This document shows positions 5,102 to 63,495 of a stretch of 64,000 bases of DNA, piece after piece; the stretch's first letter is position 1; every line of letters starts with the position of its first letter. Origin of the DNA: Bacteroidaceae bacterium (GTDB taxonomy: Bacteria; Bacteroidota; Bacteroidia; Bacteroidales; Bacteroidaceae); assembly GCA_017622815.1 (NCBI GenBank), contig JAGAQH010000002.1, forward strand, positions 62,001 through 126,000. The letters run 5' to 3'. The notes below the pieces were generated by a model. That model ran no database searches. It saw only the letters and a list, made by a program, of their open reading frames with translations, and was not told the DNA's origin. The translations under genes were made by a program, and so were the position numbers.

Positions 5102-5998
5102 GCACATTCAAGAACTTCATCTACAGTAACCATCCTCAGGACACATTTCTTGAAGATGGTTACTTGTTGTTTTGTAAACTTGTGTACCTGTTTACATGTA
5201 CACAAGAATTACCTTTTATTAGGGAATACGTTACCAAATATAAATTCGGCAACAAATACGATTTCTTACCGAATTTATAAAACCGTACAAAAGACCACAC
5301 TGCATTCTTATTGTGAACTATTTGTACAATGGTTATAGATTTGTTATTCGAAAATACAGTTCGCACTAATTTGCTCATTCCAATAATTATTCTGTCTGAC
5401 GACCCAAAGACTGTAAAGGCTCACTTGACCTTCTTCTTGCTTTTTCTCTTTTATCCCCTTTCTTTTGTCGAATCTCATGCTGCTGCCTAACAGGACAGCT
5501 TGTAGCCGAACACTCCTAATCTCTTTTCCCGCTCTTCAGTCTTGGCCTTCCACAGCATAGACTCTTTGCTTGTCGATGGGCATTCTTGTTCTACATGCTC
5601 CCATCTAATAGCGGAATGATACGCAGCACCTCGCATGTCCTTCTCCGTCCGATGGCCATGACGTGCCCAGTCTGAGCGTTGGACTGTCGGGCATCCTCCT
5701 TTTCGTATCTGTCACTGAATTGTTCTTATTCCGACTTACTCATTGATGACTTTTCCGGGCGAAGCGAGTACAATTACTTTTTCCGTCGCAAAGTTAGTGC
5801 AAGCCGTATTCTGCAAGTACCAGGTGCCTTATTCCTCGAATTATTTCAAAAACTTTTTGCCGTCTGCAGGGCATCCAATAAAAACTTTTCAGGCCCCGGG
5901 GTGAAATAATTCGGTAATTCCTTGCATTCCCATACTTCCCTTGCCAACTCTTAAAGCAACGTAAAAAATAAATGTTTCACTTCTAAAAATTCAAAACA
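5102..5998. other. 0.9-kb intergenic region with two large inverted repeats
   Basis: After the par-like site at 5174-5206 there is an inverted repeat ATAAATTCGG (5240-5249) / CCGAATTTAT (5269-5278). Close to the SSB gene is GAATTATTTCA (5838-5848), exactly complementary to TGAAATAATTC (5902-5912), which could fold as an SSB leader. A leftward TAACTTTG box at 5796-5789 precedes a weak 49-codon minus frame (5636-5487, stop TAG) with plausible composition. I do not call it as a gene. Confidence 0.5.
5174..5206. repeat. Nested inverted repeat with partition-site words
   Basis: CTTGTGTAC (5179-5187) pairs with GTACACAAG (5198-5206). Nested with it, GTAAAC (5174-5179) pairs with GTTTAC (5190-5195). 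Both words also occur in the arrays at 3262-3297 and 4462-4553. A third copy about 750 bp downstream of the partner gene suggests a distributed binding locus. Confidence 0.5.
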
Positions 5999-6379
5999 AT
6001 GAAAAAGATCGAGAACAATTTCGCAGTAACAGGTTTCGTAGGTAAGGATGCAGAAATCCGTCAGTTCACAACCGCTTCAGTAGCACGTTTCTCACTGGCT
6101 ATCGGCCGCATCGAGAAGAACGGCGAGGAAAACAACCGCGTATCGGCTTTCATCAATGTGGAAGCATGGCGCAAGAACGAGAACGCCGATTCATTCGACA
6201 AGCTCACAAAGAACACCATGCTCACCGTGGAAGGCTACTTCAAGCCTGAAGAGTGGAGCGATCAGGATGGAGTCAAGCACAACCGCGTCGTGCTGGTAGC
6301 CACCAAGTTCTATGAGACTCCCGACAAGGAGGAAGCTCCGAAGGAGGAGAAAAAGACTTCCAAGAAGAAGGCCAAGTGA
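5999..6379 (+). CDS. ssb: Single-stranded DNA-binding protein (OB fold), first of two
   Basis: A 126-residue SSB-family protein. The OB-fold pattern is clear (NNFAVTGFVGKDAEIRQF, INVEAWRKNENAD, LTVEGYFKPEEW). The C-terminus is a basic Lys-rich tail (KKTSKKKAK) instead of the acidic DDIPF tip, so it probably does not recruit host SSB-interacting proteins in the usual way. A second SSB with a proper tip follows at 6468. These proteins protect single-stranded DNA during transfer or replication. The gene is preceded by a long inverted-repeat leader (5838-5912). Confidence 0.85.
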   Translation: MKKIENNFAVTGFVGKDAEIRQFTTASVARFSLAIGRIEKNGEENNRVSAFINVEAWRKNENADSFDKLTKNTMLTVEGYFKPEEWSDQDGVKHNRVVLVATKFYETPDKEEAPKEEKKTSKKKAK

Positions 6380-6467
6380 GCCTTCTTCTTCCTCTTACGA
6401 GGAAAGATTCCCAACGAAAGGGAAAAGAAAACTCAAAGATTATTCACCATCTAACAATTTCAAGATT

Positions 6468-6890
6468 ATGATTTACACACACACTATCGGACGCATCGGC
6501 AAGGATTGCCAGGTCATCACAGGAACACACGGAACATTCATGGCGGTTGACATAGCCGTTGATGATTACTCCAAAGGTCAGAACATCACCACATGGGTAA
6601 GGGTACGCAGCAGCCGTGAGAACCATGTCCGTCTGGCTGAATACCTCACCAAGGGAAGGCTCATTCTCGTGGAGGGAACTATCTCTACATCACAGTGGAC
6701 AGACCGCCAAGGCGAGAGCCACACCCAAATCTCCATCAATGCGGACAGCATCGCTTTCGTCAACGCAGGGAAGAAAGACGAGCAGAACGCCGACCCGAAG
6801 AAGGCTGCAAAGAAAGGTGCCAAGGCAAAGAACACGCCCCAACCACCGCAGGACGCTCCAGCACCTGACGAGAAGGACATGCCGTTCTAA
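6468..6890 (+). CDS. ssb: Single-stranded DNA-binding protein with canonical MPF tip
   Basis: A 140-residue SSB. The start is set at the ATG at 6468, because the frame upstream is the shadow of the first SSB. The OB fold spans about residues 1-105 (MIYTHTIGRIGKDCQV, WVRVRSSRENHVRLAEYL, LVEGTISTSQWTDRQG). A Lys/Ala/Pro-rich linker then leads to the acidic tip DEKDMPF that contacts partner proteins in bacterial SSBs. It forms an operon with the tail-less SSB upstream, giving the element two SSBs of different interaction type. Confidence 0.88.
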   Translation: MIYTHTIGRIGKDCQVITGTHGTFMAVDIAVDDYSKGQNITTWVRVRSSRENHVRLAEYLTKGRLILVEGTISTSQWTDRQGESHTQISINADSIAFVNAGKKDEQNADPKKAAKKGAKAKNTPQPPQDAPAPDEKDMPF

Positions 6891-6908
6891 TGAAGGAAGG
6901 AGGACGCA

Positions 6909-7073
6909 ATGAGATACGCAAGGCTTTTCGTTCCCTATCGGGGATATTGGGACATTCAAGTTGATTTGAATAGCATCGAGGGTGGCTATCATGGCTATCA
7001 GTACAACTGCATCGTAGTAGGCAGCGGAGCGGAGATAACCTGCTATCGGGACGAGTTTGAGTTTGTGGACTAA
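6909..7073 (+). CDS. Small orphan protein (54 aa)
   Basis: A short frame from ATG 6909 to TAA 7071-7073, 18 bp after the SSB stop. The 54 residues are aromatic and Gly-rich (VPYRGYWDIQVDLNSIEG) and end in an acidic segment (RDEFEFVD). Its tight spacing within the ssb operon and protein-like composition support it. No domain recognised. Confidence 0.5.
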   Translation: MRYARLFVPYRGYWDIQVDLNSIEGGYHGYQYNCIVVGSGAEITCYRDEFEFVD

Positions 7074-7088
7074 TATTTTTCAAAGACT

Positions 7089-7310
7089 ATGGATTGGCAT
7101 ATCATCTACGCAAAATTCGATGGATGCAAGAGCTTCAAGGCTTTTGACATCAACGAGGGAAGACAAGTCGGTAATCTGATTTATGCTTCTCTGGTGGAGA
7201 ACACGGAGGACACCCGGCAGAAACTCCAGAAGCTGGCAGACTTGAACAAGGGGCTTCACCTTGTGCTACAACTTCGCAGGAAAGGCAGAGTGTGCTTTCA
7301 GACTAAGTAA
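7089..7310 (+). CDS. Small orphan protein of the ssb operon (73 aa)
   Basis: Seventy-three residues, 15 bp after the preceding small frame. The pattern is mixed beta then helix (MDWHIIYAKFDGCKSFKAF, then TRQKLQKLADLNKGLHLVL). It probably belongs to the same transcript as the two SSBs. I do not recognise the family. Confidence 0.55.
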   Translation: MDWHIIYAKFDGCKSFKAFDINEGRQVGNLIYASLVENTEDTRQKLQKLADLNKGLHLVLQLRRKGRVCFQTK

Positions 7311-7354
7311 AAGGTAACGGGCAGACCAACCATCTGCCCACAATTTTTCTTTTT

Positions 7355-7459
7355 ATGGAACAGCCAAAAGACATCAAGCGTGAGCAGATAAAGGCTCTGA
7401 TGGAAAAGATGAAGCAGGATGGGAAGCCCATTGATTGGGCTACCATTGTCCTTTGCTGA
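7355..7459 (+). CDS. Last small peptide of the ssb operon (34 aa)
   Basis: ATG 7355 to TGA 7459 encodes a charged helical peptide (MEQPKDIKREQIKALMEKMK) ending PIDWATIVLC. A strong intrinsic terminator starts 8 bp after the stop, which argues that this is the real 3' end of the operon. Short length limits certainty. Confidence 0.4.
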   Translation: MEQPKDIKREQIKALMEKMKQDGKPIDWATIVLC

Positions 7460-7467
7460 ACCCAGCG

Positions 7468-7497
7468 CGTCCTGCTGTAAACGGCAGGACGTTTTCT
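7468..7497 (+). terminator. Intrinsic terminator of the ssb operon
   Basis: CGTCCTGC (7468-7475) pairs with GCAGGACG (7484-7491) around an 8-nt loop, followed by TTTTCTT. An eight-pair GC-rich stem plus T-run is a standard Rho-independent terminator. Confidence 0.8.
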
Positions 7498-8440
7498 TGT
7501 TGTACCTTCATTCCATTATCCTTCAGAAAGTGTACTTCATCGGTGAAGCGATGCTGCACTGATAAAGCACACATACTTCAGGAGAGGCAAACACGGAACA
7601 ACTTGCTTCAGCTGCCAAGGATGATCGCATAGCGCACATGCTCAGCATCTGAAGCGAGTCCATCCGTCTTGTAGCTTGCCTCTCTAATTCCATTTCACTT
7701 TTCATCTTGACCTCTTATAACAGCCTTACAAAATGATCTTTTAATACTTTGTGCCTCACTTTATAGTGTCGTAATGCTTCGCCCCACACCATGAAGCCAA
7801 GCCCTGTCCCATTAACAGAGTCTTTATTTTCAGTCAGCAGAGCATGATTGAAAGAAAAGACACTGTCACAGGGAGGGGCAATCACGAAAAGGTAGCCGGT
7901 CATCTTCAAACAGGGTCGGTGAGATCGCAGGGCGAAACCTCACTGACGCTGTTCTTGCTGACAGTCCACCACTTCGTCTGTAAGATTGCCCTGGCTGGAC
8001 TCTGGCTTCATTCCCACCCATACTTATTGTAATCTGACGGCAATGATAGTTATAAACTGACGGATGGTATGCTTCTAAGCTGACGAGTAAGTCTTTCATT
8101 ATAACCTACGCCCACACCATTGTCTAAACAGCATTCTCAGTTTGTCATAGAGGGAAAACTCTTGTGGTCAAGCGAGTTGATCATAAGAGTTTCCTCACTC
8201 TGCCAAAGGTATGTCAAGGAGACTCTATCAAGCCTTGCCAGAAGGTATTTGGCAAAACTAAACACTTTGCCAGATACGTTCTGTCTTTCCGGCTGTGATG
8301 GAGACTCCTCTTATTGACATACTGGCTGAGGATGCCTGTTTGGACAAGCCCGCCCCACCTTTTATAATTGTTATACATGACATTTTCTGTCATATCCTTC
8401 AAAGCCCGTGAAAAGGAATTCTTCTGCAAAGGTAGTTTCG
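7498..8440. other. About 0.94 kb without a supported gene
   Basis: All frames are short or overlap one another with poor codon structure. Small hairpins are visible: AAAACTCTT (8157-8165) with AAGAGTTT (8186-8193), and TTGCCA/TGGCAA near 8236-8255. The region may be decayed DNA or hold an untranslated RNA. Nothing more can be supported. Confidence 0.4.
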
Positions 8441-8616
8441 CCATTCAAACCGTCAAGAATAGCAGGGCTTCGCTTTCAACAATCTTCCTTTTCGCTGAAA
8501 AGAGTATTCTTGAAACTTTTCTTGCCTTATTGCCTTGCTATCACCTTGAAAAGCAGAAAAATTCCCAATCACAGGCTGAAAGGCTTGAAAGAAAGGGAAA
8601 ATAAAAATTCAAGAGT
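8441..8616 (+). ncRNA. Structured 5' leader, copy A
   Basis: A 33-nt core at 8479-8511 is identical to copy B (10395-10427), and a 14-nt block at 8521-8534 is identical at the same spacing. The core contains hairpin CTTTTC-GCT-GAAAAG. It is enclosed by stem TTTCAA (8474-8479) / TTGAAA (8510-8515). In copy B the stem sequence differs but still pairs, so RNA folding appears conserved. It ends in GAAAGGGAAAATAAAA just before the DUF2958 start. A leader-type regulator is inferred; no known riboswitch was recognised. Confidence 0.6.
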
Positions 8617-9003
8617 ATGGCAACAACAAATTTCAACAACCGACTGATAACGCCAGAGCTGACCGAGGCACTGAGCAGTTATCCCCTGTATTCTCAGGAC
8701 GCGAAGAAGAAGGATGCACTTTGCATCGCAGTGTTTTACCTTGGCAATATCCGCTGGTACATCATGGAAGGACAGCAGGAAGGCAATGACTTCACACTCT
8801 ATGGCATCGTTACTGGACTGCAAGAGACGGAGTACGGCTACCAGTCTGCAACCGAAATGGCAGGTATCACCTATGATGCAAGTGAGTATGGACTTGGCAC
8901 ATTGAGGATTGAGCAGGACAAGGATTTCAAGCCTTGCACCCTTGCAGAGATTGAGGACGCAGAACTGCAGGCGTTTCTCTCACGGCTCTATGACAAAGAC
9001 TAA
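8617..9003 (+). CDS. DUF2958 family protein
   Basis: A 128-residue protein with the DUF2958 pattern: LxxYPLYSQD near the N-terminus, then FYLGNIRWYIMEG, then YGIVTGLQETEYGYQS, and a C-terminal LGTLRIEQDKDFKP. The family is common on plasmids and conjugative elements. No biochemical role is established. It heads an operon of small proteins to 10182 and follows structured leader copy A. Confidence 0.8.
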   Translation: MATTNFNNRLITPELTEALSSYPLYSQDAKKKDALCIAVFYLGNIRWYIMEGQQEGNDFTLYGIVTGLQETEYGYQSATEMAGITYDASEYGLGTLRIEQDKDFKPCTLAEIEDAELQAFLSRLYDKD

Positions 9004-48996: not shown

Positions 48997-49064
48997 ATAT
49001 ATCCACCCATTCTCTAAATATAGCTGATGCCTTCTAATATTTGTATAAATTTTGTTTCTTACTT

Positions 49065-49307
49065 CTATTCATATTGGTTTTTCCTACGATACTTATTGGC
49101 TACTTCAATGAGTTTGGCAAACTTTTCAAGTCGCTCAGGCGAATAGCCTCCTTTGGCTATTTGCTTTTTTGTGTGCTTGAACCAGTTGAGCAAATCATGT
49201 TCTTCAATTCTATGCTTAGAAGGTCGCCTGTGATGGGTTTCCATGAAGTCCATCATCTGATCATACTGCATTTGCCATTTCTCATCTTGTGTCATAGCCG
49301 CATACAT
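49065..49307 (-). CDS. Helicase-associated-domain protein coupled to hsdR
   Basis: 80 residues. WQMQYDQMMDFMETHHRRPS and LLNWFKHTKKQIAKGGYSPE form one helicase-associated (HA) repeat, usually found at the C-terminus of restriction helicases. Here it is a separate gene whose ATG overlaps the hsdR stop (TAATG). Coupled translation suggests it binds HsdR or DNA as a subunit. Confidence 0.75.
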   Translation of the reverse strand: MYAAMTQDEKWQMQYDQMMDFMETHHRRPSKHRIEEHDLLNWFKHTKKQIAKGGYSPERLEKFAKLIEVANKYRRKNQYE

Positions 49308-52300
49308 TAATTGTAATCTACAGGAGGTTCTGCAGCCATACTATAAGAAGTATTTGTGTCTTCCTCAATATAGTGGCCGTTCATTTCTAATTCAGTGATA
49401 CAGGAGCCTGTTGCGTAACAGTACATGGTAACAATAATGCTTATTGCTGCATTAAGTTCCTGTTCTGAAGCCGTTGGCGATATATGGGACTCGCTATTGC
49501 GCCACTCTTTAACCATAAGTAACCACTGGTAAAGCTGTTGTTTAGCTTCATCGGTGCTATACTTTAACTGCCAAAGTGGTTTTACATCATGTATTACATT
49601 GGCCCACGTTACGGATTCTCCCTCGTTTTGTGGTTTCACCTCTTCATTCTTCATCAAGTAGTAGAGTTTCTTCAGATAGGCTTCGAACTTTGTAACCAGC
49701 AGATTGAAGGAAACGAACTTGTCAACGATAGTGCTGCCGTCTTTATATAGGTTGATGAAAGCACGATGGAGGAATAGGCCAACACCGTCAAGAGACTCGA
49801 TCGAGTCTTTGTCCATTACGTAGAACAATGCTTCGACAATTTCTTTGGTGGAACGCATACTCTTCTTTACACCAGCAAGGGTGAAACTGATTATCTTTTC
49901 TATTTCTGCCTTAGACTTGTTGATATGAGGCATGAACTGAATGGTCATTCCAGACTCTGGATCTTGTTCACCAGCTAAAGCAGGATTCTCCAACACAGCA
50001 AATCCCTCATCAACAGAAGGCTGTTCGATAACGACATCCTGTATTGTAACATCGTCATTCAAGTATGCAGCCAAAATCTTTTCACGCTGCTCTGGGTCAA
50101 GGATGAAGTCTTTCAACAACTTTGCCCCTTTTGCACTCACCATACGAGCCTTTGGTTCAGTACCTTCAACCTTGGTGATAAATGCGCGAGTCTTGATAGG
50201 GTCAAGTGTCAAGCGCAATTCTGCAAAGCGGTTAAAGTCATCCAGATTTTCCTCAGTTGGATTAGAGACGATGATTTGCTGAAGCATACTGATGTTTACT
50301 CCTGTTGCTTCAGACAGTATGAGGATTTGCTTGTATAGTTCCTTCAACTGATATTCATTGATATAGTCCTGAATGGTTTTTCCTGCTTCTGGGCGCAAAT
50401 CTCCACGCTGTATGTCATGTAATATTAGGATTGCTGTACGTTGATCCTTCTGTGGAAGGGATGCAAATGTCTTGTGCAATTCCTGTAATGCTTCTTTTGT
50501 CGGTTCACTACCAGGGCCATCAGTATAGAGTCGTTTAATGAAGCGTACAAACTTTGAATTGATATATTCTGCATCGATGGCTCCTGTTCCTGTTTCTGTG
50601 ATGTAGGTGTCAACGGGATAGTCAAACTCATGGCCTTCGCCACCGCCAGTTCCACCTTCAAACAGTTCACGATAGCGTTGTAGAAGAATCAGATAAGTTT
50701 GTTCATCCAACTCCATAGAAATGCGTGTATAGGTGTCCCCATGCTTAAACTCATATTCACTCTTTTCCCATACAAATCCCTGGAGCTTTGCGGCCTCCAG
50801 AAGTCTAGTCATGCTGCTGAAGTCCTGTGCAAACATCCGGCGGTCTTCACGGGTGTCTGGCAGACGCTCGAAGTTGAAAATCTCATGTGAGTGGAAAATG
50901 TCGCGTATATGCAGGAACTTTCTGTTGATGTTCATGAGGTTGTCTTCCAACTTATCGACGAACACGCCAAGAGGACGGTCAACATATACCTCCAGAGCAT
51001 CTTCAATGTTACGCTCCATTGTATAGGGGAACGTGTAGTAGTAAATGGTTCCGAAGGGCTTGTCTGGTCCAAAGAGTCTGTTTGTACGAGAAAATGCCTG
51101 AATGATGTCCACATACTTCATCACCTTATCCACATAAAGGGTATTGACCCATTTGGAGTCATAACCAGTCAGCATCTGAGTAACCACAATCAGAAGGTCT
51201 ATCTGTTGTGAATGGTCATGTTCTATGCCGACGTATGGCTTTTTGTGTGCAAGTCGCTTCGCTACATCCTTTTTGTATTTACCGTATGTTGAGAGTTGGA
51301 AGCTGGTCTGGTATTTTGCATTATAATCAGTCAGCATTTCCAAGAGCGCATCTTCACGAGCAATGCCTTCATCACTGTTGTCTATATTGTTATCAAATAC
51401 AGCAACAACATTCATTGATGAGTATTGCGTCTTGAATAATTTGTAGTAAGCAATAGCTTCTGGTATATTCTGAGTAGCAAGGATAGCATGAAACTTACGG
51501 TTCTTGCTTACACGGTCGAATTTCCCCATGATGTCAGCTGCTACCGCCTGATGATGTATGTCTTGCTGATAAAGATCTTTTGGAAGGTAATGTTCAACTC
51601 CATGACGAGTTTCGCCATTCTCTGTATAAGTGTCAGGCATCTCTAGCTCGTGCATAAAGCGGTTATATACCTTCATTGCTTCCGGGTCATCTTTGATTTC
51701 CTCTACACTCTTAGCATCAAGTTGACAGAGAGCTGCCTTCTCGCGAAGTTCATCATCGCTATATGTATTGATGCGATAAGGATCAAAACCAAGAACATTG
51801 CCATCTGGAATACCATTGGCAATGGTGTACTTATGGAGCATATCGCCAAACAGTGTTTCTGTCATGATTTCGTTGTGAGCATTCTCCTCGAAAACAGGTG
51901 TACCAGTAAAACCAAAGAGTAATGCACGTGGGAATGTACGCTTAATGCTCTGAAGCATTTCGCCGAATACGGAACGGTGACACTCGTCGATTATAAACAC
52001 CAGTCGTTTTTTGCCAATACGCTCAATCATGGCAGCATCAATACTTGGGCCTGGCTTGATATTCGACATCTTCTGAATGGATGTAACAATTAAGCGGTCA
52101 TCATTACTGGTGCTATCAAGCTTAGACGCAAGTATGACAGTATTCTGAGTGTCCTGAACACTTTCATCCTCACCTGCAAAACCACGGTATTCATCGAGTG
52201 ATTGAATGCTCAGTTCTATTCTATCCATCAAGAAAACCACTTTGTCTGCATCACCACTGTTGGCAATAAGCTGTGCCGACTTGAATGAAGTCATGGTCTT

Positions 52301-53224
52301 ACCAGAGCCAGTCGTGTGCCATATATAGCCGCCTCGGTGCTCATGCTCATCCCAATTGACGGCATGTGTTACGTCGCATATTTTGCTGGCAGCAAAATAC
52401 TGATAAGAGCGCAGAACTTTTAATGTCTGGTCTTTGTCATCAGCTATTGTATAGTAACCAATCAGCTGATGTGCCATAGGTATATTCAGGAGTTCGGTGG
52501 CTACACGGTGCCAGTCGAAAATCTCCTGATTGTTAAAGTCTGCCCAATGGAACTGAAATTCTTTCTGGAAACGGTTTTCAGTACCAGGATTAGCAAAGTA
52601 GAGTGTTTTCTCTGGGGTCATAGCAACGAAAATCTGAACCATCGAGAAAATACCACTACTGAAAATACCTTCGTGCATATAGCGTTTCAGTTGGAACACG
52701 GCCTGAGACACATCCACACGACTACGTTTCAGTTCTACGTGGATAACGGGCATACCGTTTATGAGCAACATTACATCACCACGACGGTCACCCGCCAATG
52801 GGTGAGTTGCACGGAAACGAGGCTGACGCACTATCTGGTAACGGCTTTGACCTGCACTGATTTCAGTAGGGTCAAATATCTTTAGATAGACTTCCTTACC
52901 ATTGTTAAAAGTGTCATCCGGGTTGTCGCGTTTGATGCTGACGAACTTGCCATTGATAAACTTGTTCACCTTGTATGGGTTACCACACATATTCACCTTG
53001 TCGATGATTTGCTGTATCTCCGTTGGTGTAAGTGGGTAGTTACCCAAACGTTCACGGTCTCGGTTCATGTCGAAGATGATATCAGCCCAATTCTGGACTA
53101 GCTCTTCTTCTGTAGGCTGTACCAATACCTCACTGCTCCAGCCGTGTTCTGAAAGCAGGTGACAGAGAGCCAACTCAAATGCCGACTCCTTTTCAAATGG
53201 GTGAATGTTAACCTCGTTGCTCAT
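49307..53224 (-). CDS. hsdR: Type I restriction endonuclease subunit R
   Basis: The ATG at 53224 gives 1305 residues. The N-terminal nuclease has D150, E164 and K166 (HVELKR). The motor has HTTGSGKTMTS (TGSGKT 305-310), IIDECHRSVFG (DECH 413-416) and FGFTGTPVF. It cuts and translocates DNA when HsdS finds an unmethylated site. The C-terminal 300 residues are helical and bind the methylase. The hsdS gene ends 17 bp upstream of this start. Confidence 0.95.
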   Translation of the reverse strand: MSNEVNIHPFEKESAFELALCHLLSEHGWSSEVLVQPTEEELVQNWADIIFDMNRDRERLGNYPLTPTEIQQIIDKVNMCGNPYKVNKFINGKFVSIKRDNPDDTFNNGKEVYLKIFDPTEISAGQSRYQIVRQPRFRATHPLAGDRRGDVMLLINGMPVIHVELKRSRVDVSQAVFQLKRYMHEGIFSSGIFSMVQIFVAMTPEKTLYFANPGTENRFQKEFQFHWADFNNQEIFDWHRVATELLNIPMAHQLIGYYTIADDKDQTLKVLRSYQYFAASKICDVTHAVNWDEHEHRGGYIWHTTGSGKTMTSFKSAQLIANSGDADKVVFLMDRIELSIQSLDEYRGFAGEDESVQDTQNTVILASKLDSTSNDDRLIVTSIQKMSNIKPGPSIDAAMIERIGKKRLVFIIDECHRSVFGEMLQSIKRTFPRALLFGFTGTPVFEENAHNEIMTETLFGDMLHKYTIANGIPDGNVLGFDPYRINTYSDDELREKAALCQLDAKSVEEIKDDPEAMKVYNRFMHELEMPDTYTENGETRHGVEHYLPKDLYQQDIHHQAVAADIMGKFDRVSKNRKFHAILATQNIPEAIAYYKLFKTQYSSMNVVAVFDNNIDNSDEGIAREDALLEMLTDYNAKYQTSFQLSTYGKYKKDVAKRLAHKKPYVGIEHDHSQQIDLLIVVTQMLTGYDSKWVNTLYVDKVMKYVDIIQAFSRTNRLFGPDKPFGTIYYYTFPYTMERNIEDALEVYVDRPLGVFVDKLEDNLMNINRKFLHIRDIFHSHEIFNFERLPDTREDRRMFAQDFSSMTRLLEAAKLQGFVWEKSEYEFKHGDTYTRISMELDEQTYLILLQRYRELFEGGTGGGEGHEFDYPVDTYITETGTGAIDAEYINSKFVRFIKRLYTDGPGSEPTKEALQELHKTFASLPQKDQRTAILILHDIQRGDLRPEAGKTIQDYINEYQLKELYKQILILSEATGVNISMLQQIIVSNPTEENLDDFNRFAELRLTLDPIKTRAFITKVEGTEPKARMVSAKGAKLLKDFILDPEQREKILAAYLNDDVTIQDVVIEQPSVDEGFAVLENPALAGEQDPESGMTIQFMPHINKSKAEIEKIISFTLAGVKKSMRSTKEIVEALFYVMDKDSIESLDGVGLFLHRAFINLYKDGSTIVDKFVSFNLLVTKFEAYLKKLYYLMKNEEVKPQNEGESVTWANVIHDVKPLWQLKYSTDEAKQQLYQWLLMVKEWRNSESHISPTASEQELNAAISIIVTMYCYATGSCITELEMNGHYIEEDTNTSYSMAAEPPVDYN

Positions 53225-53241
53225 ATTTTTATTTTGTTTTG

Positions 53242-55176
53242 TTATGCAATCATCTTCTTTAAACAAGCTTTTTTCAATTGCTCCAGTTTCTCTAATTGTA
53301 GAGTCTGCAATGAGATCTGCTTATCAAAGCTTTGGAAAAAAGTGACAATACGCTGCTGTTCTTCCATTGAAGGGACGAAAACATCCATATCTTTTATGTC
53401 TGAATATGAAAGAGTTTGGCGCATACCATCCCCCATAGAATAGAACACTTTTCGTAAATCAAATGTGTGAAGTTGGAGATATAGAAACTCCGGCAATACA
53501 TTTTCACACTGAACACAAACATAAGCAGGAGATATTATTCCTTCCTCTTTAACCAAACCTACACGAAGACTTTTATGGTCATTCTGTAAGTCGGTAAAGC
53601 GGAATACAATTATTCCATCTTTCACCATCTGATAAGTATCAAATGATGCTGGCAATAATCCTTTCTTTGTCTGTATATCTTTTTTCACGATCTTTCCGTA
53701 ACTTAATGATAACAAATTCTGATGATGAATATTCTTGTTTGACATGAAGTAAGGCTTGGCAAGTATTGAAAACTTTGCTATAGCCCAATCTCCATTATAG
53801 CCTTTGAATCTTATTGATGAGAAGTACCCCCCATTTTGTGGGAACATACCGTCCAAACAGGCTGACTTCATCTGTTTCAGACGTTCCAAACGCTGTTGTT
53901 GAACTGCAATGTTTGAGTCTATTCTTTTAAAAAAGGATGCTATGCTTTTTTGTTCTTCAAATTCAGGAAAGTTTAATGCCATCTCTCCGAATTCTGAAAA
54001 ACTTATTGATCTTCCATCTCGAATACCATATGTAATTGTCTTCAGACGATCCACAAATGCTTTCGACATAAAAACAGTTTTCCAAAAATAGTCATCATGC
54101 TTGTCTGTTTCCTTAAAGCCAAATACTGTATATGCTGGAGAGGTTATACCTTCTACAGCTGAATGTGCAAAGCCACCTTGAAATGAGCGCAAATGAATGA
54201 CAAACTGACCTGGCATTACTACCTTATATGTCACTTCATTCGCTCTATCATGACTTATATCATATCCGCTCTCACTTCTAACAGCCATACCTCTGATATC
54301 CTGGCAAGCTGAAAGAACTGGTAATTCTGGATGATTCCTATTGTTGTATGTTATAAATAATTCAGAAGCCATAGCTCTATTCCATTTGTTATTGAAGTTT
54401 TTAAAGCGTATGGGGGGGGTGTTTTCTGATTGCTGTGGGAACATTGAATCAAGACAAGCAGATTTCAGTTGCTTTAGTCTCTCAAACTGATGCTGATGCA
54501 ACTTCATTTGATCATCAAGTCTTTGCAAAAAAGATGCAATTCTTTTTTGTTCCTCTATGTCCTTTGGAATCATTATATACCCCGTGAGTGCTGTTTCGTC
54601 ACTTATATTCATAGTGTTTTTAGCACCTTTGTTTACAAGCGGACGCATATACGCATTCAACCTCCACGCAGGATCAAAATAATAATGAATGTACTCAGGT
54701 GCAACACCTTCTTTAGGATTATATACAGCATAGAGCACAGACACTATTCCTGCTTTGCCCGTGTTATGTTTTACAATTCCATATGGTTTAGCACGAAGAG
54801 GGGATTTCGTATATACAATCTGCCCAGGACGTAATATTTTATATCCACTAACAGACTTTCCTGCATAGCTTCTACCAAGATGCTCAATCTGATTGACAAC
54901 GCCATTCTCATCAGAAACAGACAAGACATCTTCAATACCAAAAATATTATCAGTGTTCTTTTCATCTGATATTTCGAGACAATCGCTCAACAGTTTCTTC
55001 TGCCATTCACCTTCAAAGCCTTTGAAGCGGAGTCTAGGTGTTGTCTCTCCCTCCTGTGGAAACAGCATACGGGCACAATCCTCCAACTTTCCGTTGGCGG
55101 TTTCATCGTTGGTGGTCAGAATCAGTTCGTCCAACTGCCCATCTAAGCCTTGCAAAGTTATTTCTTGTTTCGCCAT
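53242..55176 (-). CDS. hsdS: Type I specificity subunit with three target-recognition domains
   Basis: The ATG at 55176 gives 644 residues, about 1.5 times a usual HsdS. Three TRDs (about 48-205, 255-405, 452-602) are each followed by a conserved coiled coil (EEQKRIASFLQRLDDQMKL; EEQKSIASFFKRIDSNIAVQ; EEQQRIVTFFQSFDKQISLQ). The joins repeat the pattern MFPQ...RFK.F...W. Residues 30-58 resemble another such join. Standard HsdS has two TRDs. A C8 tract crosses the first junction. Confidence 0.9.
   Translation of the reverse strand: MAKQEITLQGLDGQLDELILTTNDETANGKLEDCARMLFPQEGETTPRLRFKGFEGEWQKKLLSDCLEISDEKNTDNIFGIEDVLSVSDENGVVNQIEHLGRSYAGKSVSGYKILRPGQIVYTKSPLRAKPYGIVKHNTGKAGIVSVLYAVYNPKEGVAPEYIHYYFDPAWRLNAYMRPLVNKGAKNTMNISDETALTGYIMIPKDIEEQKRIASFLQRLDDQMKLHQHQFERLKQLKSACLDSMFPQQSENTPPIRFKNFNNKWNRAMASELFITYNNRNHPELPVLSACQDIRGMAVRSESGYDISHDRANEVTYKVVMPGQFVIHLRSFQGGFAHSAVEGITSPAYTVFGFKETDKHDDYFWKTVFMSKAFVDRLKTITYGIRDGRSISFSEFGEMALNFPEFEEQKSIASFFKRIDSNIAVQQQRLERLKQMKSACLDGMFPQNGGYFSSIRFKGYNGDWAIAKFSILAKPYFMSNKNIHHQNLLSLSYGKIVKKDIQTKKGLLPASFDTYQMVKDGIIVFRFTDLQNDHKSLRVGLVKEEGIISPAYVCVQCENVLPEFLYLQLHTFDLRKVFYSMGDGMRQTLSYSDIKDMDVFVPSMEEQQRIVTFFQSFDKQISLQTLQLEKLEQLKKACLKKMIA
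54412..54419 (-). repeat. C8 homopolymer in hsdS (candidate phase-variation tract)
   Basis: Eight C on the coding strand encode part of Thr253-Pro254-Pro255, right at the join between TRD1 and TRD2. The loss or gain of one base would end the protein after TRD1 and its coiled coil. A G6 run marks the second join (53827-53832). Confidence 0.6.
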
Positions 55177-55181
55177 AATCA

Positions 55182-56309
55182 CTATTCGTTTTCTGTTTCT
55201 GGGTTAGCCTCGTTATATTCCTCAATCCATTCCTTCACCTTCGACTGAAGCAGAGCCTTGTCGGGAAGATAGAGTTGGTATTGAGTAGCGTAGATATTTG
55301 CATCCTTTGGCAAAGTCAATTCTACAAGTGCATCGCTTTTCTCCTTGCAAAGCAGGATGCCAATGGTGGGATGCTCAAAATCTTCTTTGACATAGCGATC
55401 GTAATAGTTCACATACATTTGCATCTGTCCGAGATCCTGATGGGTGAGGTCATCAATCTTCAGATCAACGAGTACGTAGCATTGAAGCAGTCGGTTGTAT
55501 AGTACCAAATCCACATAGAAGTTTCGTTCCTCAAAGGTAAACCTCTTCTGACGTGCCTCAAACAAAAAACCTTTGCCCATCTCCAGCAAGAAATTCTGTA
55601 ACTTGCTTATGATGGCGTTTTCCAGTTTGCTCTCGCTATACGCTGTGTCGGGCTTCAGCCCCAAAAATTCCAGTGTAACAGGATCTTTGATGATGTCCTG
55701 CGGCTTCTCTATAGTCTGACCTTCGCGCGAAAGACGCATCACCTCATCTTTATCACGGCTTAAAGCCAACCGCTCATATAGGCTGCTGGCATGTTGACGT
55801 TTTAGCTGGCGTACGCTCCACTGCTCACGAGCGCACTCAATTTCATAGAAACTGCGCTCGTCGGGATTCTCTATGCGCATCAAAACCAGATAGTGTGACC
55901 AAGTAAGGACAAACTTCGGCTGTTGAATTTTGGCAACACTGTTGCTAAATTTCGTTTCGCCTTGACCTTCAATAGATTGTAATTTTGGCAACGGTGTTGC
56001 CGAAATTGCTGGGTTGTTATAAGCAACGAAAAACTTTCTACACCTTGTAAGCGTATCAATAGTCCAATCATTACCATATTTTGCCATCAGACGCTGTGAA
56101 AGATTCTGCATGATGCGGGCTCCGTATGCAGCACGTCCTCCTTGTTGTTCATCTTCAAAAATGTAACGACCAACCTCAAATCGTGTCTTAACCTCAGTCA
56201 CGTTTACGGTTCGGTAAACATGTTGACGAGCTTGTTCGATGAGATTTGCAATGCGCTCAAAGAGTGCGTCAATGCGTTCCGTTACTTGTATTTCGTTCTT
56301 CTGTGTCAT
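55182..56309 (-). CDS. DUF1016/YhcG-family PD-(D/E)XK nuclease within the type I locus
   Basis: 375 residues. The N-terminal DUF1016 helix region (YGARIMQNLSQRLMAKYGND, WTIDTLTRCRKFF) precedes a PD-(D/E)XK fold: FYVDLVLYNRLLQCYVLVDL, followed by KIDD, where the usual ELK reads DLK. Length is typical. It lies between hsdM and hsdS and its stop overlaps the possible GTG start of hsdS. This family often accompanies type I systems. Role proposed: extra nuclease or regulator. Confidence 0.85.
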   Translation of the reverse strand: MTQKNEIQVTERIDALFERIANLIEQARQHVYRTVNVTEVKTRFEVGRYIFEDEQQGGRAAYGARIMQNLSQRLMAKYGNDWTIDTLTRCRKFFVAYNNPAISATPLPKLQSIEGQGETKFSNSVAKIQQPKFVLTWSHYLVLMRIENPDERSFYEIECAREQWSVRQLKRQHASSLYERLALSRDKDEVMRLSREGQTIEKPQDIIKDPVTLEFLGLKPDTAYSESKLENAIISKLQNFLLEMGKGFLFEARQKRFTFEERNFYVDLVLYNRLLQCYVLVDLKIDDLTHQDLGQMQMYVNYYDRYVKEDFEHPTIGILLCKEKSDALVELTLPKDANIYATQYQLYLPDKALLQSKVKEWIEEYNEANPETENE

Positions 56310-56351: not shown

Positions 56352-58922
56352 TTATTTGTTTAACTCCTGTAAGCCTTTCAATGCGAACTCATCGCCTGTA
56401 AGGTCGGCTACTAATGCCGATAATTCCGTCTGGGCTGTAGCAAGTTGTTCTGTTAGGTCACTGTATGATGTTGCGTACTTTCGAGCCAGAGTTGTGATTT
56501 GCTTTTCAAGTTCGGAAAGAACAGCTGTAAGCGTTCCATTGATTCCATCTAACATAGGATCAATCCACTTCATGTGAAGGAATTGCTCTACTTCTTGGTC
56601 TGTCAGATTCTCAATGGCCTCTTTAGTCTTATCAATCAAAGTCAGTTTTTCTTCTTTGATTGCTTTGTTCAACTTTGACTGCTCGTCCCACAGCTTAACA
56701 AACTGCTTCAGCTTTTCTTTGGTGTCAGGGTCGATGTCATCTCCCTTGGCTTTCGCATCTTTCTTGATTTTTGCCTTGTCGAGCTTAGGATTGTCATCAC
56801 CCTCCATGTATTCCTGCGACTCCTCGTCTGTGAAGCCGTCAACTAGTTCATTAATCTCAGATTCTATTTCTTCACCACGTGCTTCTTTGTCATTGATGGC
56901 TTGCAATTCAGCTTGGAATTTCACTTGTTGAACAAGAGAGAAAGGTATGATACGCCCCTTCAAACCATCGGGAACTTCAATGTCTTCATCACCTTTCTTT
57001 ACTAGCTTGTATGCTGTTTCAACTACACGGGCTGCATCAATTCCATCAGTTTGAAGGGTCTCAATATCATTGGCGATAGTTTGCCACCCATTACTCATTG
57101 CTTGATAAGCTGCATAGCGATCTATTAAAGGAATATCTTCCAACCTCTGGAAAATGTCATCGGCAATCTCGTAACGTTCCTTCAACTCTTTCACATTAGC
57201 CACGTTTATAATCAATCGGCGGTGTAACTCTTCGGCAAAACCATCAAATGCCTTGGCAAATCCCTCTCGTAGCTTTGCCGTGTCTTCATCGTTAGCAATA
57301 GCCGTAGAAACATCGTCTGTTGTTATGACCGAGTATGGCTTGTCGTTTGCAGGTTGGAACAAATCCCTACGCAGAGAGGGAAGAGCCTCCCAATACTTGT
57401 TCAACAGTTCGATTTCACTATTAGGAATACCTCCGAACATGGTGGCGTAAATGTCGTATTGCTCTGGAGCTTCAGAAGAATCAACATAACGGGGAATGTT
57501 CAGATTATAATTATTCTCACGGATGGTCTCACGGCTCACCTTGCGTGAAAAGCCTGGTTCGTCAGAACGTAAACGTACTGTATCGGCAATACGTTTGATG
57601 TCACAATCGCGTAGTTTGTTGTTCTTACCATCCTTCACAAATCCTTTTGAGGCATCAATGATAAGGACATCGTCATTTTGCCGGTGTTGCTTCAGCACCA
57701 TGATTAGAGTAGGAATGCCTGTACCGAAGAAGATATTGGCAGGTAAGCCGATAATACAGTCTATCTGGTTTTTCTCAATCAGCTTCTTACGAATTTTGCC
57801 TTCACCATCATCTTCAGGGTCGCCACGGAACAGTACACCATGAGGTAACACTATAGTAAGAATGCCATCTGGTTTTAGATGGTGAAGTTCATGCAGCAAG
57901 AACGCATAATCGGCCTTACTCTTTGGAGCAACGCCGTAGTCCTTGAAACGAGCATCCATTTCTGCATCAGAAGGATCCCAATGCTGTGAATAAGGTGGAT
58001 TTGATACCACGGCATCTACATAAAGTGGTCGCCCTGCATTTGGACCTGTTTTCTCAATAGGCCAGTCTTCACCAAGAGAGTCTGCACAACGGGTATCAAT
58101 GTTGCCAGGACGAATACCACGCATCACCAGATTCATACGAGTTAAGTTGTAAGTGTTCTCTTTCAACTCCTGAGCATAATACTTCACTCGGTTACGGTCT
58201 TCGATGTGACGGCCAACGCTCTTACCAATGGTAATAAGCAGAGAACCCGAACCACTTGTTGGGTCGTATATCTCTATTTGCTGCTTATTCTTATGATGTT
58301 CAGCAACAATTTCAGACATTAACATGGCCACCTCGTGAGGAGTATAGAACTCACCAGCTTTCTTTCCGGCATTAGCGGCAAAGTTACTAATCAAGTATTC
58401 ATAGACATATCCTAATACGTCATAGTCCTGAGAGCCATCTGTGGGAATATCTTTGATAAGCTTAATAAGTTCTTTGAGGGCTTTCGTCTGAGAAGCTGGA
58501 TTCTCACCAAGTTTGCTCAATCCGGCTTGCAAGGTGATGAAAATGCTTTCATAAACGTGCTTATATGTCGGACTAACAAGTGAGTCAAAACGATTTAAGG
58601 CTACACTCAGGTCTGCTACGCTAAACGTGGTCTCAGGAAGGAGCCAAGTAGAAAACAGGTTTTTGTATTCAATGAAGTAACCTATACTACGCTTACAGTC
58701 CTCAATAGTAAGTGCCATATCCTCGTCTTCGTAATCTTCAACGAGGTCAGGCAAGTCTTCTTCCGTCCAACCGCTACGCTTTAGATGCGCAACTTCGTTG
58801 TCCGACAGAAACTTGTAAAAGATAAGACCCAGAATATAGTCCTTATATTCATTGGCATCAATCTTAGACCTCATTTTGTTTGCGGAAGCCCAGATCTTAT
58901 TTGCTAGCTGTTGTTTATTCAT
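56352..58922 (-). CDS. hsdM: Type I methyltransferase subunit with long C-terminal extension
   Basis: The ATG at 58922 gives 856 residues. The AdoMet site YDPTSGSGSLL is at 219-229, and the catalytic NPPY at 308-311 (N6-adenine class). The HsdM N-terminal helical domain is intact. Usual HsdM has about 500 residues; the extra 340 residues are charged and helical, rich in E, D and K. The extension may hold the HsdS or replace a missing subunit contact. It heads the RM operon. Confidence 0.93.
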   Translation of the reverse strand: MNKQQLANKIWASANKMRSKIDANEYKDYILGLIFYKFLSDNEVAHLKRSGWTEEDLPDLVEDYEDEDMALTIEDCKRSIGYFIEYKNLFSTWLLPETTFSVADLSVALNRFDSLVSPTYKHVYESIFITLQAGLSKLGENPASQTKALKELIKLIKDIPTDGSQDYDVLGYVYEYLISNFAANAGKKAGEFYTPHEVAMLMSEIVAEHHKNKQQIEIYDPTSGSGSLLITIGKSVGRHIEDRNRVKYYAQELKENTYNLTRMNLVMRGIRPGNIDTRCADSLGEDWPIEKTGPNAGRPLYVDAVVSNPPYSQHWDPSDAEMDARFKDYGVAPKSKADYAFLLHELHHLKPDGILTIVLPHGVLFRGDPEDDGEGKIRKKLIEKNQIDCIIGLPANIFFGTGIPTLIMVLKQHRQNDDVLIIDASKGFVKDGKNNKLRDCDIKRIADTVRLRSDEPGFSRKVSRETIRENNYNLNIPRYVDSSEAPEQYDIYATMFGGIPNSEIELLNKYWEALPSLRRDLFQPANDKPYSVITTDDVSTAIANDEDTAKLREGFAKAFDGFAEELHRRLIINVANVKELKERYEIADDIFQRLEDIPLIDRYAAYQAMSNGWQTIANDIETLQTDGIDAARVVETAYKLVKKGDEDIEVPDGLKGRIIPFSLVQQVKFQAELQAINDKEARGEEIESEINELVDGFTDEESQEYMEGDDNPKLDKAKIKKDAKAKGDDIDPDTKEKLKQFVKLWDEQSKLNKAIKEEKLTLIDKTKEAIENLTDQEVEQFLHMKWIDPMLDGINGTLTAVLSELEKQITTLARKYATSYSDLTEQLATAQTELSALVADLTGDEFALKGLQELNK

Positions 58923-58984
58923 ATTGAAATTATACAATTTATCAATTTATGAGTGCAAAGATAGATTCCTATTGTGAAGTCTAT

Positions 58985-60001
58985 CTACACAGTTAAATAT
59001 TTTTTTAGGTTCTCTTCAATTTTTTCCTTGATTTCCTGTCTTAACCATTCCGGAGAAAGCACTTCGACCTGTGGGCAGAATGAGAAGATGATTGATATCA
59101 ATTCTTTATTAGGACGAACATCAATCTGGATTATATGTTCCTCATCACTTACAATCGTCTGGCTATGATGTATTGGCTTGGAAACGATGTATGGGTATCT
59201 GTCTTCATCGAACTTTAACTTCACATGTTCAATGTTTCCAGGTGCATCTGGTGTCGAAACGCCAACGATGTCATCAAATCTCGTAGAAAAATCCTCTATC
59301 GTGTTGGGGATAAACTCCACATCAGACAAGGATAGTTTTACTATTCTGTCCAATGGCCTATTTGCAATACGAGGAGATCCTGTGCTGGATTCCTCTAAGC
59401 CGAACAAGAACCATCTGTTGTTATATTCTCTAACGTGATAAGGATGGATGACAGAAGAGGTTTCTTTTCCTCTATAGGTTCTATACTGTAGAAGTAGAGT
59501 CTTCTTGTTTATTGCAGCATCGATGATTGCTGACAGAAATTCAAGTCCCTTCAGCTTTTCATTCTGTTCAAAAACAACGATATTCTCACGATTTGCCTTA
59601 ACTCCAAATCGGAATTCAAGTTTCGAGATAACTTCTTCAAGCCAGACATTACCAGGAATACCCCGGTAGCGACTAAGCATATCAATAGTAGAACGTAGTT
59701 CTGCAAGTTCCTGAACGCTCAATTCGTTGTTGAATATAGAATAACTAGGGTCATCATAGGTGTAATAGCATCTTCTTCCCTCAATAGGACGTGCCACAAT
59801 CGGAGCATCATAAGATACACGGTCACGCATATACGTAATATCAGCACGTATTTGTCGAAGGCTGACTGTTTTGCCATACATGTCAAGCAAGGCTTCATTT
59901 ACCTTATCGACGAGATCTTCAATCTCATAGCGGCGATGACGATCACTGAAACAGCGGTCTAGTATTTGGTATCGCAGTAGCGCATTCTTATTGATAGGCA
60001 T
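58985..60001 (-). CDS. WYL-domain transcriptional regulator
   Basis: 338 residues. An N-terminal winged HTH (YEIEDLVDKVNEALLDMYGK, TVSLRQIRADITYMRDR) precedes the WYL domain (LLLQYRTYRGKETSSVIHPY, REYNNRWFLFGLEES). A WCX-like C-terminus follows. WYL regulators commonly sit beside defence loci and sense nucleic acid ligands. The gene is 62 bp upstream of hsdM and probably controls the RM genes. Confidence 0.9.
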   Translation of the reverse strand: MPINKNALLRYQILDRCFSDRHRRYEIEDLVDKVNEALLDMYGKTVSLRQIRADITYMRDRVSYDAPIVARPIEGRRCYYTYDDPSYSIFNNELSVQELAELRSTIDMLSRYRGIPGNVWLEEVISKLEFRFGVKANRENIVVFEQNEKLKGLEFLSAIIDAAINKKTLLLQYRTYRGKETSSVIHPYHVREYNNRWFLFGLEESSTGSPRIANRPLDRIVKLSLSDVEFIPNTIEDFSTRFDDIVGVSTPDAPGNIEHVKLKFDEDRYPYIVSKPIHHSQTIVSDEEHIIQIDVRPNKELISIIFSFCPQVEVLSPEWLRQEIKEKIEENLKKYLTV

Positions 60002-61872: not shown

Positions 61873-63495
61873 ATGAGTAAGAATAGAACATTAAATCCAA
61901 ACATAGCATCTGGCAGAATAGATGTTCTTGACAAAGATGAAATCTTCGTCTTTGGCAGTAACCTTGCAGGACAGCATAAGGGAGGCGCAGCAAGAGCTGC
62001 AAACATGAAGTTTGGAGCCGAATGGGGCGTTGGCGTTGGATTGACAGGTCAAGCTTATGCCATACCAACCATGCAAGGAGGCGTTGACACCATAAGACCA
62101 TACGTTGACGAGTTCATTGAGTTTGCAAAAGCTCACACCGACTTAAAATTCCTGGTTACGCGGATCGGTTGCGGCATAGCAGGATTTAAGGACGAAGAAA
62201 TTGCCCCTCTTTTCACAAAGGCCATGTCTGTCAATAACATATTCCTCCCGAAGGAGTTTTATGACATCATCGCTGCACCATACTTGGCTCATTGCTTCTA
62301 TTATGGAAAGAATGTGCCAGAAGATTGTGGCGCACACGTTGGACATATGTATGAAGAGTATTGGGTTAGATTCCATTTCGATGAATCAGACTATCTCATG
62401 ACAGAGACCATTAACTTCATTAAAGAGGGACTGGGCAATTTCTGTGCGGATGATGGTGTACCTGTATCCATGAAAGCCCTTCTATATAATCGCTTTTGTC
62501 ATTGGGGATGGTATGAAACGCCGGACACATTCAGAAGTTGGTACGAAAGTATCGGCTATACAAATGTGACAAAGAAACAGGACACATTACTGAAAAATCC
62601 CAAAAACAAATTCAATCCTTTGCTAATGGGAGCTGTCCTTGGAGATATTGTCGGCAGCATCTATGAGTTCAATCCACGCAAGTCAACAGACATAGATCTT
62701 CAGGACAAAAGAATGGACTATACCGATGATACCATCATGACTATTGCTGTTGCTGACTGGATTCTTAACGATAAGAAACACACAAAGAAAGGACTGGTCA
62801 CTCGAATGCAAGAATGGGGACGAAAATATCCCAACCCAATGGGAGCCTATGGTGGAATGTTCTCGCAATGGCTGACTTCTAAGAACCCAAAGCCATATAA
62901 CTCTTGGGGAAATGGAGCTGCCATGAGGGTGGCCGCTGTTGGCTTTGCCTTCTCCACTTTGGAGGAAACATTAGAGGTTGCTAAGAAAAGTGCGGAAGTT
63001 ACGCATAACCATCCTGAAGGTATCAAGGGGGCGCAAGCTACAGCTGCAGCTATCTTTATGGCAAGAACAGGTTGCTCCAAAGAGGATATTCGCCGCTACA
63101 TAAGTGAAAACTTCGGCTATGACCTAAACAGGACTTGTGATGACATTCGCCCGAATTATAGTTTCGACGGCAGCTGTCAGGGTACTGTGCCGGAATCCAT
63201 CATTGCTTTCCTTGACAGCAAGGATTACGAGGATGCTTTGCGACTTTGTATCTCACTGGGGGGTGATGCTGATACTATGGGGGCCATAACAGGTGCAATA
63301 GCAGGAGCATATTACGGCACAATGCCTTATGCCTTGCATGTATTTGGCATGGCCAAATTACCTGACGACATTAAAGATGTGATTAGCAAATTCGACTATA
63401 ATCATGGCCGGATGGTATCGTGTTACTGGCGGCCACCAGAATACAATGCCGAAGAACATATTCGGAAAGTTCAATCAGGTGAAATTTTCATATAA
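61873..63495 (+). CDS. Macro-like domain fused to ADP-ribosylglycohydrolase
   Basis: 540 residues. The N-terminal part (residues 15-130) has FVFGSNLAGQHKGGAARAAN and FLVTRIGCGIAGFKDEEIAP, the pattern of a macro-like family. A charged linker (140-245) follows. The C-terminal ADP-ribosylglycohydrolase has GAVLGDIVGSIYEFN, the metal site TDDT (284-287), NGAAMRVAAVGFAF and GGDADT (463-468). It would cleave ADP-ribose from protein, nucleic acid or small molecules. Two ADP-ribose modules in one chain suggest coordinated processing. Confidence 0.87.
   Translation: MSKNRTLNPNIASGRIDVLDKDEIFVFGSNLAGQHKGGAARAANMKFGAEWGVGVGLTGQAYAIPTMQGGVDTIRPYVDEFIEFAKAHTDLKFLVTRIGCGIAGFKDEEIAPLFTKAMSVNNIFLPKEFYDIIAAPYLAHCFYYGKNVPEDCGAHVGHMYEEYWVRFHFDESDYLMTETINFIKEGLGNFCADDGVPVSMKALLYNRFCHWGWYETPDTFRSWYESIGYTNVTKKQDTLLKNPKNKFNPLLMGAVLGDIVGSIYEFNPRKSTDIDLQDKRMDYTDDTIMTIAVADWILNDKKHTKKGLVTRMQEWGRKYPNPMGAYGGMFSQWLTSKNPKPYNSWGNGAAMRVAAVGFAFSTLEETLEVAKKSAEVTHNHPEGIKGAQATAAAIFMARTGCSKEDIRRYISENFGYDLNRTCDDIRPNYSFDGSCQGTVPESIIAFLDSKDYEDALRLCISLGGDADTMGAITGAIAGAYYGTMPYALHVFGMAKLPDDIKDVISKFDYNHGRMVSCYWRPPEYNAEEHIRKVQSGEIFI

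Follow-up and report, generated by a model that had tools for sequence, protein, structure and literature searches.

A candidate phase-variable HsdS with three target-recognition domains and homopolymer tracts at the domain joints in a Bacteroidaceae type I restriction-modification operon

Introduction

What can a type I restriction-modification (R-M) enzyme do with a third target-recognition domain (TRD)? A specificity subunit (HsdS) is expected to carry two TRDs, or one that dimerizes, but the hsdS gene analyzed here encodes three, an exception that was already described for the Hpy99XV system of Helicobacter pylori. The gene lies in a 64-kb stretch of Bacteroidaceae DNA, hereafter called the window, which belongs to a draft genome (G000) of 42 contigs that is 88% complete. 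Loci used for comparison carry L-numbers and genomes G-numbers, and these loci are in part metagenome-derived. An earlier reading of the sequence alone had recognized the three TRDs and considered that one of them might be silent, that different pairs might be used, or that the complex might read a tripartite site.

The type I R-M operon

The window contains a complete type I R-M operon, which comprises a WYL regulator, hsdM, a DUF1016/YhcG nuclease gene, hsdS, and hsdR, all on the minus strand (Table 1). The PADLOC model MTase_I, which has 857 positions, matches the window HsdM at residues 6–860, and the length of 856 aa that the sequence-only reading gave for this protein is correct if counted from the ATG (861 aa from the TTG). 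An in-frame ATG at position 53224, if used as the start of hsdR, would remove the overlap of this gene with hsdS. Directly 3' of hsdR, an 80-aa ORF (49065–49307) matches the Helicase-associated (HA) domain just below the Pfam cut-off, and a 540-aa protein encoded at 61873–63495 combines an A1S_2505-family N-terminal domain with an ADP-ribosylglycohydrolase-like domain.

An inverting shufflon would depend on multiple hsdS genes with inverted repeats. Only one other HsdS was found in the 88% complete genome, on another contig, and no inverted repeat over 32 nt, the longest at the locus, occurs between positions 49000 and 60100 of the window; a shufflon was ruled out on these grounds.

Table 1. 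Features of the R-M operon and of its hsdS gene in the window.
Feature	Position	Strand	Remarks
hsdR	49307..53266	-	Pfam; TIGR00348 hsdR; start uncertain
hsdS, three-TRD specificity subunit	53242..55182	-	GTG start, alternative ATG 55176; Pfam; PADLOC Specificity_I
Coiled-coil region CR3, C-terminus	53245..53373	-	CR profile
TRD3	53374..53796	-	64% to a TRD of two-TRD L040, 72% to L132; unit profile matches 1YF2
G6 (coding strand), CR2/TRD3 joint; weaker candidate slippage site	53827..53832	-	G8 in L088
Coiled-coil region CR2	53818..53967	-	CR profile
TRD2	53968..54396	-	77% to a TRD of L040 (two-TRD HsdS); profile matches 1YF2
C8 (coding strand), CR1/TRD2 joint; candidate slippage site	54412..54419	-	codons Thr-Pro-Pro
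Coiled-coil region CR1	54418..54564	-	CR profile
TRD1	54565..55041	-	93–94% aa identity in L006 and L088; 51–76% to TRDs of two-TRD HsdS L007, L008, L042, L047
N-terminal extension, residues 1–45 from ATG	55042..55176	-	end resembles coiled-coil tail
DUF1016/YhcG-family PDDEXK nuclease, between hsdM and hsdS; accessory	55182..56309	-	Pfam
hsdM, long type I methyltransferase	56352..58937	-	861 aa from TTG, 856 from ATG; Pfam N6_Mtase + HsdM_N
WYL-domain regulator, upstream of hsdM	58985..60001	-	Pfam

Architecture of the HsdS

The hsdS ORF encodes 646 aa from its GTG or 644 aa from the ATG, and its product combines Methylase_S TRDs with conserved coiled coils, with hsdM and hsdR alongside. Methylase_S (Pfam) matches the protein at three stretches, a 41-nt repeat recurs in the gene with its copies spaced 594 and 597 nt apart, and a profile of the coiled-coil region (CR) yields a layout in which a TRD followed by its own coiled coil is present three times. 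At the joints, the repeat copies are 63 and 80% identical in DNA to the copy taken as reference. Each of the three units also matches the solved S subunit 1YF2 in sequence or profile searches (E-values of 1.3e-5, 2.7e-14, and 4.6e-16, respectively), and the three-unit resemblance is hence not due to chance. The best stretches lie mostly in the distal TRD portions and the coiled coils, in the TRD3 unit at residues 107–202 of 206; further solved structures matched by the HsdS are 5YBB and 3OKG. These matches bear out the sequence-only reading, which had described three TRDs with one coiled coil each and had placed the TRDs at residues 48–205, 255–405, and 452–602, in agreement with the approximate ranges found here (46–204, 261–403, and 461–601 from the ATG). 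For TRD3, the fold is deduced from sequence comparison.

Among the ORFs in hand, the 45-aa N-terminal extension has matches with E < 1e-10, besides the window, in L006, L088, and L130 only. A fourth partial join that had been proposed at the N-terminus is real insofar as the end of this extension, near residues 36–55, resembles the CR1 tail (50%, E ~1e-4), but it is short and comprises about 20 residues. Two PADLOC S models match the window HsdS, one at residues 251–643 (model positions 3–406 of 408) and the other at 45–446 (7–410 of 411). Since each of these models spans a full two-TRD subunit, and since relatives with TRD1-TRD2 and TRD2-TRD3 pairs exist (see below), the most fitting view of the protein is that of two specificity modules of two TRDs each, which overlap in a shared TRD2.

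Relatives and the long HsdM

End-to-end matches to the window HsdS were found in L006, whose HsdS has 660 aa, by the genome-contig search, and in L088 by the viral-contig search; the latter locus was recovered again by an HsdM search, which is independent of the TRDs. A further locus, L130 in G968, was found by its HsdM (84%); it shares the N-terminal extension and likewise encodes three TRD units, but its frame is broken between units 2 and 3. In the HsdM tree, these three loci and the window form one clade (100/100), within which HsdM identity to the window is 84–88% and which is separate from the 12 other rows, 11 of them with a two-TRD HsdS and one with an HsdS cut by the contig end. A contig end also truncates the nearest HsdM relative, in G354 (95%), where no HsdS was found. 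Plasmid matches in tblastn searches were all under 60% identity, and scans of viral contigs for relatives of TRD2 and TRD3 gave no loci beyond those already known; the viral pattern matches L133–L206 were excluded from the final counts.

The sequence-only reading had suggested that the extended HsdM is fitted to the three-TRD HsdS, a proposal contradicted by the relatives. An HsdS was readable in 26 of the 34 long-HsdM loci and has three TRDs in four of them, which are the clade with the window included, and two in the other 22. The HsdM genes of the two-TRD loci have open frames of 860–945 codons, and their products are 45–72% identical to the window HsdM; the exception is L008, where HsdM is split over two frames and HsdR over three and HsdS is whole. 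The long HsdM is thus no adaptation to the third TRD, and its extension was ruled out as a partner of this domain. L093 was merged with L040 in the counts, being 99.8% identical to it in both HsdS and HsdM. The eight loci without readable HsdS are L044, L048, L049, L050, L098, L099, L116, and L123. The more distant loci L051–L057 lie outside the 34, but L052, L054, L055, and L056 contribute their HsdS ORFs to the 37 two-coiled-coil genes considered below.

Some variation in gene content was observed around hsdS. The DUF1016/YhcG PDDEXK nuclease gene is present also in L088 and L055, has no match in L006 or L130, and is an optional accessory. In L098 (6816–7850) and L131 (7077–8675), the gap between hsdM and hsdS is filled by other genes, whose products, judged by eye, we take to be a Fic-like protein and an ATP-binding regulator-like protein, respectively. 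L048 contains a 1072-codon ORF (5754–8969, in G338) in which HsdM is joined to an apparent single TRD with a coiled coil; this ORF, at the place of which one search marked an in-frame stop, represents a natural HsdM/half-S fusion.

Conservation and exchange of the TRDs

TRD1 of the window has 93–94% protein identity to TRD1 of L006 and L088, a conservation that is partly ascertained because both loci were retrieved with patterns including TRD1, whereas TRD2 and TRD3 share just 21–34% with those of the same loci. Among the window, L006, and L088, dN (NG86) amounts to 0.047–0.049 for TRD1, as compared to 0.08–0.11 for HsdM and 0.10–0.16 for HsdR; this comparison is made on dN alone, since synonymous sites are for the most part saturated and dS is mostly inestimable. 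TRD1 is therefore under strong constraint, and purifying selection acts on it. The idea that it might be the invariant module of the clade was ruled out by L130, a locus found via HsdM and not via TRD1, in which position 1 is occupied by a different TRD and a TRD1-like domain (63%) sits at position 2. In two-TRD HsdS, TRD1-like domains were found at either position (L007, L008, L042, and L047).

TRD2 and TRD3 are intact, have homologs in ordinary HsdS, and are swapped for other intact TRDs in relatives. The pairs known from the window recur in two-TRD HsdS, TRD1-TRD2 in L117 and TRD2-TRD3 in L132, and L040 has the order TRD3-TRD2. All three TRDs thus look live, and the clade possibly exchanges TRDs among its three positions without giving up the three-slot frame.

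Homopolymer tracts at the TRD joints

Both joint homopolymers of the window hsdS, C8 and G6 (Table 1), were absent from the sequence-only reading. C8 is the sole C/G run of 7 or more nucleotides in the window. By chance, a C8 in 64 kb would be unremarkable (0.73 expected, and present in 43 of 100 shuffles), and only the position and recurrence of the tracts are unusual. At the first joint, C8 is present in the window and in L088; at the second joint, the tract is G6 in the window, G8 in L088, C9 in L006, and C8 in L130. Long tracts at both joints are found in L088 only, L006 and L130 having one each and the second tract of the window being short. Joint tracts of at least 7 nucleotides occur in all four three-TRD loci, in two of the 37 other two-coiled-coil genes, and in none of 21 one-coiled-coil ORFs, and seven C/G runs of at least 8 nucleotides fall in the 6,603 nt of joint sequence from 62 distinct HsdS ORFs, versus one in the 71,889 nt elsewhere (P 2.2e-7); because these ORFs were gathered by kinship, with the three-TRD loci forming one clade and the two two-coiled-coil genes with tracts (L045 and L047) coming from sister lineages, the counts are not independent and P values serve as guides only. 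The single run outside the joints is the L130 tract, counted again from the split-off ORF.

As in the NgoAV system of Neisseria, the homopolymers lie at a TRD joint where a frame change ends the protein. In the genes of the window, L006, and L088, a stop follows each tract within 20 codons in either of the two other frames, which means that a slipped product would consist of whole units. L006 and L130 constitute a natural pair of fused and split genes, with 95% identity between their HsdM and, for the TRD3 units, 88% identity at the protein level and about 80% at the DNA level. In L006, the C9 at the joint is in frame and is read through to the 660-aa protein, and in L130 the frame is broken at a C8, leaving two TRDs in an ORF of 471 codons and TRD3 in a separate one of 205 codons. 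This correspondence of tract length and fused or split state is seen in one pair from two genomes, and the break in L130 might reflect an assembly error or a dead gene.

Two further sets of tracts were observed. The two-TRD hsdS genes of L045 (8578–9810) and L047 (8581–9846) have G8 and G9, respectively, at the CR1/TRD2 joint and are candidates for NgoAV-like switches between one and two TRDs. The genome G000 has 23 C/G runs of 8 or more (counted from the listing), and the 22 besides the window C8 are other possible contingency tracts.

A proposed switch of TRD number

Taking together the three TRDs, as in Hpy99XV, and the joint tract, as in NgoAV, we infer from sequence that the window hsdS is, with reasonable though modest probability, a phase-variable three-TRD gene in which slipped-strand events at the C/G joints switch the number of TRDs. 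The homopolymers would then act as slippage points. With both tracts in frame, the complete 644-aa protein would be made, in which any two neighboring units could build the core of the M2S methyltransferase, the third one being displaced. Slippage out of frame at the first joint is predicted to leave the N-terminal extension, TRD1, and CR1 (~257–274 aa), a product that could dimerize and recognize a palindromic site; at the second joint, it would result in an ordinary-looking TRD1-TRD2 protein (~454–459 aa). Tract slippage in living populations, activity of the short products, and the choice of TRD pairs are all inferred. The use of different pairs, as considered in the sequence-only reading, is plausible given the tested precedent of Hpy99XV (PMC3936762), and the same may apply here.

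More tentatively, the two joints might slip independently and turn this single hsdS into a multi-state specificity register. Its states would be set by frame alone and would comprise a TRD1/TRD1 dimer, a TRD1-TRD2 enzyme, and the full protein with TRD2-TRD3 and perhaps further pairs in use, and if this were true, at least three methylomes would be possible from one locus without recombination.

Alternative explanations

A three-TRD HsdS may also be fixed, as in Hpy99XV, with varying pairs engaging HsdM so that two or more bipartite motifs are methylated at once and the tracts merely encode Thr-Pro-Pro or Gly-Gly. That a three-TRD S subunit yields two motifs in Hpy99XV (PMC3936762), that the architecture persists in a clade with such similar HsdM, and that every TRD looks live all agree with this explanation, which we nevertheless regard as rather unlikely: it leaves unexplained why joint tracts, differing in base and position, are present in each of the four three-TRD loci and why the frame is broken in L130, and CCC accounts for 13 of the 108 proline codons in the other genes of the operon. 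A silent TRD, left over from unequal recombination next to a single working pair (probably TRD2-TRD3), is improbable, even though the two-TRD relatives L132 and L040 carry TRD2/TRD3 pairs and TRD1-TRD2-TRD2 genes arise by recombination in H. pylori (PMC3077401). The dN of TRD1, being below that of HsdM and HsdR, as well as the intact state of TRD2 and TRD3 and their homologs in ordinary HsdS, speak against it, and the joint repeats are diverged and not those of a recent duplicate.

Simultaneous binding of all three TRDs to one DNA, which would give the tripartite site envisaged earlier, has nothing in its favor apart from the three intact TRDs and is very improbable. In the known type I S subunits, two helical regions pair with two M subunits and thereby set the places of two TRDs (PMC3874165), which leaves the third TRD without a partner, and no tripartite site was met in the literature covered. 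Finally, the draft state of the source genome could raise suspicion of an assembly chimera or sequencing artifact, but L006, L088, and the frame-split L130 share the architecture and the N-terminal extension with different TRD2 and TRD3, and the rest of the operon is intact; an artifact is hence scarcely credible. Phase-variable switching of TRD number is the explanation that we consider most probable.

If this switching is real, the number of TRDs, beyond their identity, can be phase-variable in a type I enzyme, and the case would come from Bacteroidota, as opposed to Neisseria and Helicobacter in the tested precedents. With its three different TRDs and its fused and split relatives, the locus would also offer a natural system for studying how an M2S methyltransferase copes with a third TRD, for which two-TRD enzymes that carry relatives of the TRD1-TRD2 and TRD2-TRD3 pairs represent controls.

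Comparison with known systems

Three-TRD HsdS and homopolymer-switched HsdS are each already known, and in the part of the literature covered, no paper describing both features in one hsdS gene was recognized among the matches listed. A close counterpart in architecture is Hpy99XV (JHP1422/JHP1423) of H. pylori J99. As in the window system, one HsdS combines three TRDs, each of them with helical connectors, and for Hpy99XV methylation of two different sites was measured (PMC3936762). There, TRD2 and TRD3 are identical, whereas the window gene has three different TRDs and diverged joints with homopolymers; a homopolymer in JHP1422 is not mentioned in the consulted part of that paper, according to which REBASE contains several more S subunits predicted to have three TRDs. 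Movement of TRDs between positions (DOMO) includes some three-TRD genes, in H. pylori and as MAGa6310 in Mycoplasma agalactiae, for which the consulted part of the report mentions no homopolymer joints (PMC3077401), in contrast to the window gene. Inverting hsdS loci also change type I specificity at random (PMC7394358), but by means of several hsdS genes and inverted repeats.

With regard to switching, a close counterpart is NgoAV of Neisseria gonorrhoeae, in which a poly-G tract lies behind the first TRD unit and the loss of one G fuses hsdS1 to hsdS2 and changes specificity, from a one-TRD HsdS with a palindromic site to a two-TRD HsdS with another site (PMC9577141; PMC6789123). The one-TRD form has been interpreted as a homodimer (PMC3874165). 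In N. lactamica, hsdS tracts of 9 G changed during passage and human carriage (PMC6232127). Two type IIG enzymes follow related principles. HpyUM032XIII has a G12 between S1 and S2 and an altered motif upon fusion (PMC4450513), but differs from the window system in being a type IIG RM subunit with two TRDs. JHP1272 (HP1353-HP1354) of H. pylori has two homopolymers, the first of which switches activity and the second specificity (PMC3936762); the first is a C run encoding prolines, like the C8 of the window, but the enzyme is a single chain without HsdS. While NgoAV toggles between one and two TRDs, the gene described here would command up to three, with two candidate joints, both of them long only in L088.
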